From: Candidatus Woesearchaeota archaeon CG_4_10_14_0_2_um_filter_33_13
Lineage (GTDB): Archaea; Nanobdellota; Nanobdellia; Woesearchaeales; GW2011-AR9
Length of the DNA: 38,212 nucleotides
NCBI GenBank assembly: GCA_002792115.1
Contig: PFNQ01000002.1
Coordinates: 1-38,212 of the forward strand
Direction of reading: 5' to 3'
A model generated the notes under the pieces. That model was not told the origin of the DNA. It saw nothing but the letters and a program-made list of their open reading frames with translations, and searched no databases. Of this stretch, positions 17,710 to 18,718 are shown piece by piece. Position 1 is the stretch's first letter. Each line of letters starts with the position of its first letter. The position numbers were made by a program, and so were the translations under genes.

Positions 17710-17796
17710 TCAAGAAAAAGTTAATTCTTGAAGTGTTTTTTTAAGAGAATCCAATTAGGGATTTTCAGAATGCTTCGGCCTAATGGACGAAGACAT
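17710..17796 (+). promoter_or_regulatory. Structured 5' leader of the zinc-ribbon gene: two hairpins
   Basis: TCAAGAA(17710-17716)/TTCTTGA(17725-17731); ATGCTTCG(17770-17777)/CGAAG-A-CAT(17788-17796); TATA-like aggtttataaat near 17667; AGGAGG SD at 17801. Confidence 0.5.
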
Positions 17797-17812
17797 TTAT
17801 AGGAGGAATAAA

Positions 17813-18007
17813 ATGGGATACGAAAATCGTGGCGGACCAAGAAGAGATGGCCCAAGAGATAATGGACCAAGAGGAGACTTCGGACCGCGAGAATCGCACA
17901 AAGCTACATGTTCAGAATGTGGTCAAGAGTGCACAGTGCCTTTCAAACCAACTGAAGGCAAACCAGTATATTGTAGAGAATGTTACTCTAAAAGAAAAAG
18001 ATTTTAA
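17813..18007 (+). CDS. RG/GP-rich protein with CxxC...CxxC zinc ribbon
   Basis: MGYENRGGPRRDG...ATCSECGQECTVPFKPTEGKPVYCRECYSKRKRF; AGGAGG upstream of ATG 17813 supports this start over 17783. Confidence 0.85.
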   Translation: MGYENRGGPRRDGPRDNGPRGDFGPRESHKATCSECGQECTVPFKPTEGKPVYCRECYSKRKRF

Positions 18008-18069
18008 TCTTTTATCTTTCACTAGTTAATATTCCTAATTTCTTTTTTTTCTTTTCTTTGTTCTTTAAC

Positions 18070-18202
18070 AGCTAATATGGAACCCTCCCGTTCGCATCCG
18101 TTTAATCAATTAAGCTTCGCTTTTGAATGGACGGCAAACTAATTTTTGTCTTACGAGACACATCAATGCTCACTCCCAATTGGCGAGGGTTTCATAATGG
18201 CT
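18070..18202 (+). ncRNA. Candidate novel structured RNA (alternatively a MITE-like element)
   Basis: Closing stem 18070-18087/18185-18202 (one A.A mismatch, G.U wobbles); hairpin 18098-18109/18123-18134 with inner AAGC-UUC-GCUU; hairpin UGUCU-UACG-AGACA 18147-18160 (UNCG loop); no ORF. Confidence 0.55.
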
Positions 18203-18250
18203 TTCTTCAACAGCAGATTTAAATAAGCGAAAGATGTTCTTTGTCAAATT

Positions 18251-18718
18251 ATGAAAGACTATCTTAAATTGATAATCTCTTTAGCAATACCACAAATTGC
18301 TGGGGCAATTGGATCAATCTTTACAGTTAGTTCCGTTTCTACATGGTATTTAGAGTTAATGAAACCATCTTTTAACCCGCCTAGTTGGGTCTTTGGACCG
18401 GTTTGGACAACGTTGTTTGTTTTAATAGGAGTTGCTTTATTTTTGGTCTGGAAGAAAGGATGGAAAAATAATAAGATTGCGTTGTATGTTTTTTCTGCTC
18501 AAATGGTATTTAATGTGATATGGTCAGCATTATTTTTTGGATTAAGATCTCCATTTTTAGCTTTGATTGAAATTTTTATTTTAAGTATTTTAATTGCACT
18601 TAACATATGTTATTTTTATCGCATTTCTAAGCCAGCAGCTTACTTATTAGTTCCTTATTTTGTATGGGTATGTTTTGCCGCAGTGTTAAACTATTATTTG
18701 TTTGTATTAAATCATTAG
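18251..18718 (+). CDS. tspO: TspO/MBR family protein
   Basis: STWYLELMKPSFNPPSWVFGPVWTTLFVLIGVALFLVW...NVIWSALFFGLRSP; atttaaat TATA-like ~18217 suggests a near-leaderless transcript. Confidence 0.93.
   Translation: MKDYLKLIISLAIPQIAGAIGSIFTVSSVSTWYLELMKPSFNPPSWVFGPVWTTLFVLIGVALFLVWKKGWKNNKIALYVFSAQMVFNVIWSALFFGLRSPFLALIEIFILSILIALNICYFYRISKPAAYLLVPYFVWVCFAAVLNYYLFVLNH

Follow-up and report, generated by a model that had tools for sequence, protein, structure and literature searches.

The window, the whole stretch of 38,212 nucleotides of archaeal DNA analyzed here, carries on its plus strand the gene of a small protein, probably a treble-clef zinc finger (17783-18007; PF23477, E = 6e-19), followed by tspO, a gene of the TspO/MBR family that starts with an ATG at 18251 (18251-18718, plus strand; PF03073, E = 7e-47). 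The original prediction placed a novel structured RNA in the gap between these two genes, and the nested complementarity it described is present. An outer helix joins 18070-18087 to 18185-18202 with one A.A mismatch and G.U pairs, and it encloses an inner hairpin (hairpin I, 18098-18134, plus strand) and a UACG-capped hairpin, UGUCU-UACG-AGACA (18147-18160, plus strand). The limits at 18070 and 18202 are sharp and coincide with the ends of the outer helix, and no open reading frame of at least 50 aa was found between them. The arms of the helix are also terminal inverted repeats (TIRs), AGCTAATATGGAACCCTC on the plus strand at 18070-18087 and, on the minus strand at 18185-18202, the reverse complement AGCCATTATGAAACCCTC. 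Comparison of the flanks of TIR pairs revealed a 9-bp target-site duplication (TSD) around this 133-bp plus-strand element, with the left copy TTCTTTAAC at 18061-18069 and the right copy TTCTTCAAC at 18203-18211 (neither assigned a strand) differing by one mismatch (8/9). The right copy is followed by a 6-bp spacer, AGCAGA, in the position of the BRE (18212-18217, plus strand) and by the TATA box of tspO, TTTAAATA (18218-18225, plus strand), so a TATA-like box does lie 3' of the structure as had been proposed. If this TATA box is used, the core promoter lies 3' of the element, and the element is therefore outside the tspO mRNA.

The fold is more stable than expected by chance. The minimum free energy of 18065-18207 was -42.6 kcal/mol compared to -25.7 +/- 3.2 kcal/mol for 200 dinucleotide shuffles (z = -5.25), and 0/200 shuffles were as stable. 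The claim that the structure belongs to no known RNA family also held up, as Rfam covariance models at the gathering threshold gave no match in the window or in six loci with related copies, and a search of the window at E up to 10 returned nothing relevant. Additionally, ARAGORN found no tRNA in the window. When the outer 22 nt were removed from each side, the remaining interior had z = -2.6 on the plus strand and +0.5 on the minus strand. Much of the stability of the fold is contributed by the terminal inverted repeats.

When 18070-18202 was compared by BLAST with 60 relative genomes, a second, partial copy was found in its own genome and many partial matches were found elsewhere, several per genome. 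Once extended, these matches turned out to be whole elements of 123-605 bp with near-perfect TIRs, (G/A)GCTAATATGAAACCCTC, and with a direct duplication bordering each of them. In the set of 63 distinct TIR pairs the duplication was exact over 9 bp in 44 and matched at 8/9 positions in another 7, and an exact duplication of at least 10 bp was found in 0/63; distinct insertions with a duplication of at least 7/9 numbered 57. The copies are dispersed at unrelated loci, with dozens in Woesearchaeota, and copies related to the window element occur in at least 10 lineages, while other subfamilies with identical TIRs have an unrelated interior. The exact TIR was present in 94 stretches of a species-level genome collection, and its hosts, among the matches listed, were nearly all Woesearchaeota, Nanoarchaeota or unnamed-archaeon MAGs. 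No TIR was found when viral contigs were scanned.

Several features of individual copies should be mentioned here. One exact TIR lies on a contig labelled as a Gammaproteobacteria MAG (L191), which is probably mis-binned archaeal DNA. The dataset consists of MAG contigs throughout, and at L018 (G012:C57, also C75) the TIR pairs are parted by NN in the assembly. Such gaps in scaffolds seem to conceal collapsed copies, and copy numbers in MAGs are therefore underestimated. Growth by further small hairpins inserted in the interior was seen when L012 was compared with L069 and L042 and L053 with L084, and also in L051 and L052. The L012 insert is a 91-bp stretch of two hairpins, and nested palindromes reach about 600 bp. 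These inserted hairpins may be another class of tiny mobile palindromes.

Full insertion sequences (ISs) of about 1020 bp have TIRs and duplications of the same kind and encode a DDE transposase. The complete IS at L146/L219 is 1018 bp long with the same TIRs, a TSD matching at 8/9 positions and a 304-aa transposase; that at L220 is 1019 bp long with an exact TSD (AAATAGAAG twice) and a transposase 63% identical to the first; and L224 is a broken-ORF copy of 1022 bp, also with an exact TSD (CTACAAAAC twice). The TIR of L146/L219 and L220, GGCTAATATGAAACCCTC, is the one found at the ends of the window element. The transposase matches PF01609 (DDE_Tnp_1, E = 1e-10) over the cut-off and also PF05598. 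Its nearest NCBIfam model is that of the IS5 family (NF033579, E = 4e-38), with a score of 131.6 bits against a cut-off of 140, and it carries a stretch, YLQRNRIETSIDMFKKR, that by eye resembles Y(2)R(3)E(6)K. The putative parent ISs resemble the IS5 family in their DDE_Tnp_1 transposase, in their 9-bp TSD (10 bp in two relatives) and in their length of about 0.9-1.0 kb, but differ from it in the NF033579 score and in targeting core promoters. The 9-bp TSD together with the GGC-type TIR, GGCTAATATG, recalls the IS903 group of the IS5 family, a likeness of ends and TSD that is not a claim of membership. In genome G016, about six contig ends were found for each side of such an IS, two of them with a common duplication, ACCACAAAG, read by eye.

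Since 18070-18202 has TIRs and is flanked by a 9-bp duplication, it is therefore very probably a miniature inverted-repeat transposable element (MITE). At 133 bp with no transposase ORF it is short (<500 bp), though relatives of 553 and 605 bp are also found; its TIRs are common with those of an autonomous element (L146/L219, L220); its TSD length equals that of the ISs (9 bp in both, 8/9 in the window copy); and copies are dispersed, with one full and one partial in its own genome and many in relatives. In these respects it is like other prokaryotic MITEs, such as SMN1/SM3A of Sulfolobus, the Haloquadratum MITEs and QMITE of Coxiella, which are under 500 bp with TIRs and a target duplication and likewise have an intergenic preference, a stable predicted transcript fold and TIRs common with a full IS (PMC10969869, PMC3718332, PMC3119063). 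However, the Woesearchaeota MITEs differ from these in their fixed spacing to a TATA box. The IS5-like transposase of the ISs with the same ends is probably what mobilizes the MITEs in trans. A search of the window's own genome detected no transposase of this IS5-like type, so we infer the mobilization of the window copy there. The missing transposase and the slight decay of the element (TSD mismatch, imperfect TIRs) also suggest that the window copy is probably an old insertion. Two other candidate parents were rejected. A transposase fragment of IS4-like type next to a TIR in G068 (L055/L097) was dropped as an apparent composite of two ISs, and a PF01609 protein from the window's own genome (L093, G000:C17) was ruled out because it lacks these TIRs. 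The L093 locus has a 537-aa open frame with DDE_Tnp_1, adjoined by a frame that is IS200-like in look.

The alternative first proposed for this locus is a stand-alone structured non-coding RNA gene, in which case the related copies would be paralogous RNA genes. The strength of the fold favors it, and so does hairpin I, whose arms vary among lineages while their complementarity is kept. When the arms from 10 lineages were swapped, the pairing score was 11.1 compared to 14.9 for each arm with its own partner (permutation p = 1.5e-4). This permutation was used in place of RNAalifold on a MAFFT alignment of the copies, which recovered the TIR helix alone, as hairpin I fails to align at the sequence level. 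Additionally, G.U exceeds A.C on the plus strand by 12 to 3 among 10 lineage representatives (p = 0.035), which are related samples. The covariation expected among relatives was thus found for hairpin I; the UNCG hairpin, in contrast, is not conserved, since GTCTNACGAGAC is present in only 8/50 elements, although the GTCTNACGA part of it is a subfamily motif present in 21/50. Several observations are difficult to reconcile with an RNA gene. Its limits are TIRs bounded by 9-bp TSDs, and full ISs carry the same ends. Either orientation to the promoter is found among the copies (12 vs 9), other subfamilies share the TIRs but have unrelated interiors, and hairpin I is more stable on the plus strand in only 7/11. 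Therefore, while the structure, its limits and its lack of a known family stand as first described, we consider a stand-alone RNA gene very improbable.

It is also conceivable that the MITE additionally encodes a functional structured RNA or an RNA-level regulator of its neighbor. The covariation of hairpin I and the weak G.U excess would agree with this, and MITE-derived sRNAs have been reported in Coxiella (PMC10969869). However, the TIR arms change in concert as well (GGCTAC...GTAGCC, GGCTCATATG...CATATGAGCC), so palindrome correction at the DNA level or transposition can yield compensatory pairs. Transcription of tspO from the TATA box at 18218 would also leave the element out of the tspO mRNA, a further argument against such a role, which we regard as unlikely. 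In other subfamilies, both strands of the interior give strong folds, which fits DNA palindromes. The RNA-like fold of the MITE comes mostly from pairing of the TIRs, to which the conserved and covarying hairpin I is added.

The insertion sites of these elements have a consistent relationship to promoters. A motif of nnAAnn-TTTATAWA, which is the archaeal BRE-TATA arrangement, begins 6-7 bp past the TSD on one flank only. When the starts of TATA-like motifs were counted by offset after the TSD (0-based), without reference to genes, 42 were at +6, 21 at +7, 9 at +8 and 0-4 at each other offset. The motif was found on exactly one flank in 46/57 insertions and on both flanks in 0/57, the opposite flank being without it. 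Using a graded score of at least 7/8, 53/57 paired insertions (93%) had a TATA-like box at +6/+7 compared to 9% at control offsets, and the PWM of the aligned flanks showed A at +3 in 82%, A at +4 in 91% and TTTATAWA at +7 to +14. The window spacer matches this at +4 (A) but not at +3 (C), and its TATA box is at the fixed offset of the family. Unpaired TIR ends, a sample not used earlier in which the partner end is missing, gave the same result, with TATA at the offset in 33/78 independent ends, where about half is expected, compared to 5% in the control (p = 4e-22). IS relatives from order- and phylum-wide searches, which have transposase identity down to about 30%, differing TIRs (GGCTCTGTTGAAA, GGCTCCGGTG) and 9- or 10-bp duplications, had a TATA-like box at +6/+7 in 12/13 lineages compared to 12% in the control, and the sole lineage without it has doubtful limits. 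Since the fixed TATA spacing appears in paired insertions, single ends and IS lineages, we conclude that these elements insert into the upstream edge of core promoters in archaea. This preference has near single-base precision in both the ISs and the MITEs, and we are highly confident that 18070-18202 is an old copy of a Woesearchaeota MITE family of this kind.

The positions of genes agree with this placement. A start codon lies 35-70 nt away in 26/52 insertions compared to 19% in the control (p = 4e-7), and only 1/52 insertions lies between convergent genes. That shortage between convergent genes, together with the depletion of MITE copies from coding sequence, could also arise by survivorship, with insertions elsewhere being lethal and those upstream of promoters being kept. 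However, survivorship predicts a broad spread of distances, whereas the TATA box of most copies starts at +6/+7 and very rarely at any other offset, making this explanation extremely improbable. In L153:2449-2757, one copy precedes a tRNA gene (Rfam tRNA, 2643-2757) by about 40 nt and has TATA at the fixed offset; a comparable layout in L140 involves a tRNA-like sequence below threshold. A search of 49 family genomes for tspO found one other (G035), which also carries a MITE copy, so no empty site was available by tspO synteny. The tspO of G035 has a MITE of the same TIR family, but of another subfamily and with the TSD TCTGAATCC, directly upstream of its TATA box (L218:1290-1431). This is an independent insertion at the promoter of the same gene.

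Two models may explain how the target is found. The TSD stops 6 bp short of the TATA box and lies just beyond the BRE, which places insertion at the upstream edge of the core promoter. One possibility is that the transposase reads the BRE/TATA DNA directly, without TBP or TFB. The strong PWM at the insertion sites favors this, as does the fact that the BRE AA is present at 30/38 insertion sites compared to 90/150 untargeted promoters. However, a symmetric signature would be expected from a transpososome that reads the target itself, whereas the motif lies on a single flank. We therefore prefer a bound third party, TBP plus TFB, as the explanation. Motif matches in coding DNA are also seldom hit (3/46 vs 418/1064), but selection may contribute to this, and so tethering and sequence reading are not separated by it. 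Direct reading is the main rival to tethering and a substantial possibility, though we do not think it probable. As far as sequence can tell, the data fit TBP-TFB tethering and direct BRE/TATA recognition alike. The one-sided, fixed spacing leads us to lean slightly toward a model in which the target would be found by contact with TBP-TFB and not by TATA sequence alone. In such a model the transposase would dock on the TBP-TFB-promoter complex as Ty3 docks on TFIIIB.

Promoter-targeting transposons are already known from yeast (Ty3) and among some bacterial DDE elements (TnGBS, ISLre2, ISKra4). The yeast Ty3 retrotransposon integrates upstream of Pol III genes via TFIIIB, including a TBP contact (PMC8632968). 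It is similar to the elements described here in its near single-base precision at a TBP-bound promoter and in its 'harmless' position, but it uses a retroelement integrase at eukaryotic Pol III promoters, and its TBP contact has been solved (PMC8632968), whereas the archaeal one is a proposal. TnGBS, ISLre2 and ISKra4 (p-MULT 3/4) insert at a fixed distance upstream of sigma-A promoters in bacteria (PMC3942029). They also have a DDE transposase, and an initiation complex has been proposed to take part, but the transposase is Mutator/IS256-like, the promoters are bacterial sigma-A promoters and the distance is 15-17 bp from the -35 (PMC3942029). Most p-MULT 3 elements are oriented (PMC3942029), whereas the archaeal elements here are found in both orientations. 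ISH6 of haloarchaea (p-MULT 2) is an archaeal IS with an AT-rich target, for which promoters were suggested to be favored, but its AT-rich motif is within the TSD and no fixed TATA spacing was reported (PMC3942029).

The literature searched, in which few subscription papers were covered, contained no report of a fixed TATA-box spacing of MITEs, or of promoter targeting at an archaeal TATA/BRE or by an IS5-family element. The structure of the element is that of an ordinary prokaryotic MITE, and it differs from the promoter-targeting elements described above in the archaeal BRE/TATA promoter, the IS5-like transposase and the use of both orientations, though priority is not proven.

The data presented here raise the question of whether a clade of archaeal IS5-like transposases, together with its MITEs, binds the TBP-TFB-promoter complex and is spread in Woesearchaeota and related DPANN archaea as a DNA-transposon counterpart of Ty3/TFIIIB, a proposal whose chances we judge to be evenly balanced. 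If the transposase does dock on TBP-TFB, transcription-factor-guided target choice would be a trait that evolved in each of the three domains, and it could be studied in the simplest TBP system. An element inserted at this position disrupts neither the core promoter nor coding sequence, and so would do limited harm in a genome that is small and gene-dense. Each insertion also points, with base resolution, to a likely core promoter in archaea that are uncultured and for which there is no transcriptome.
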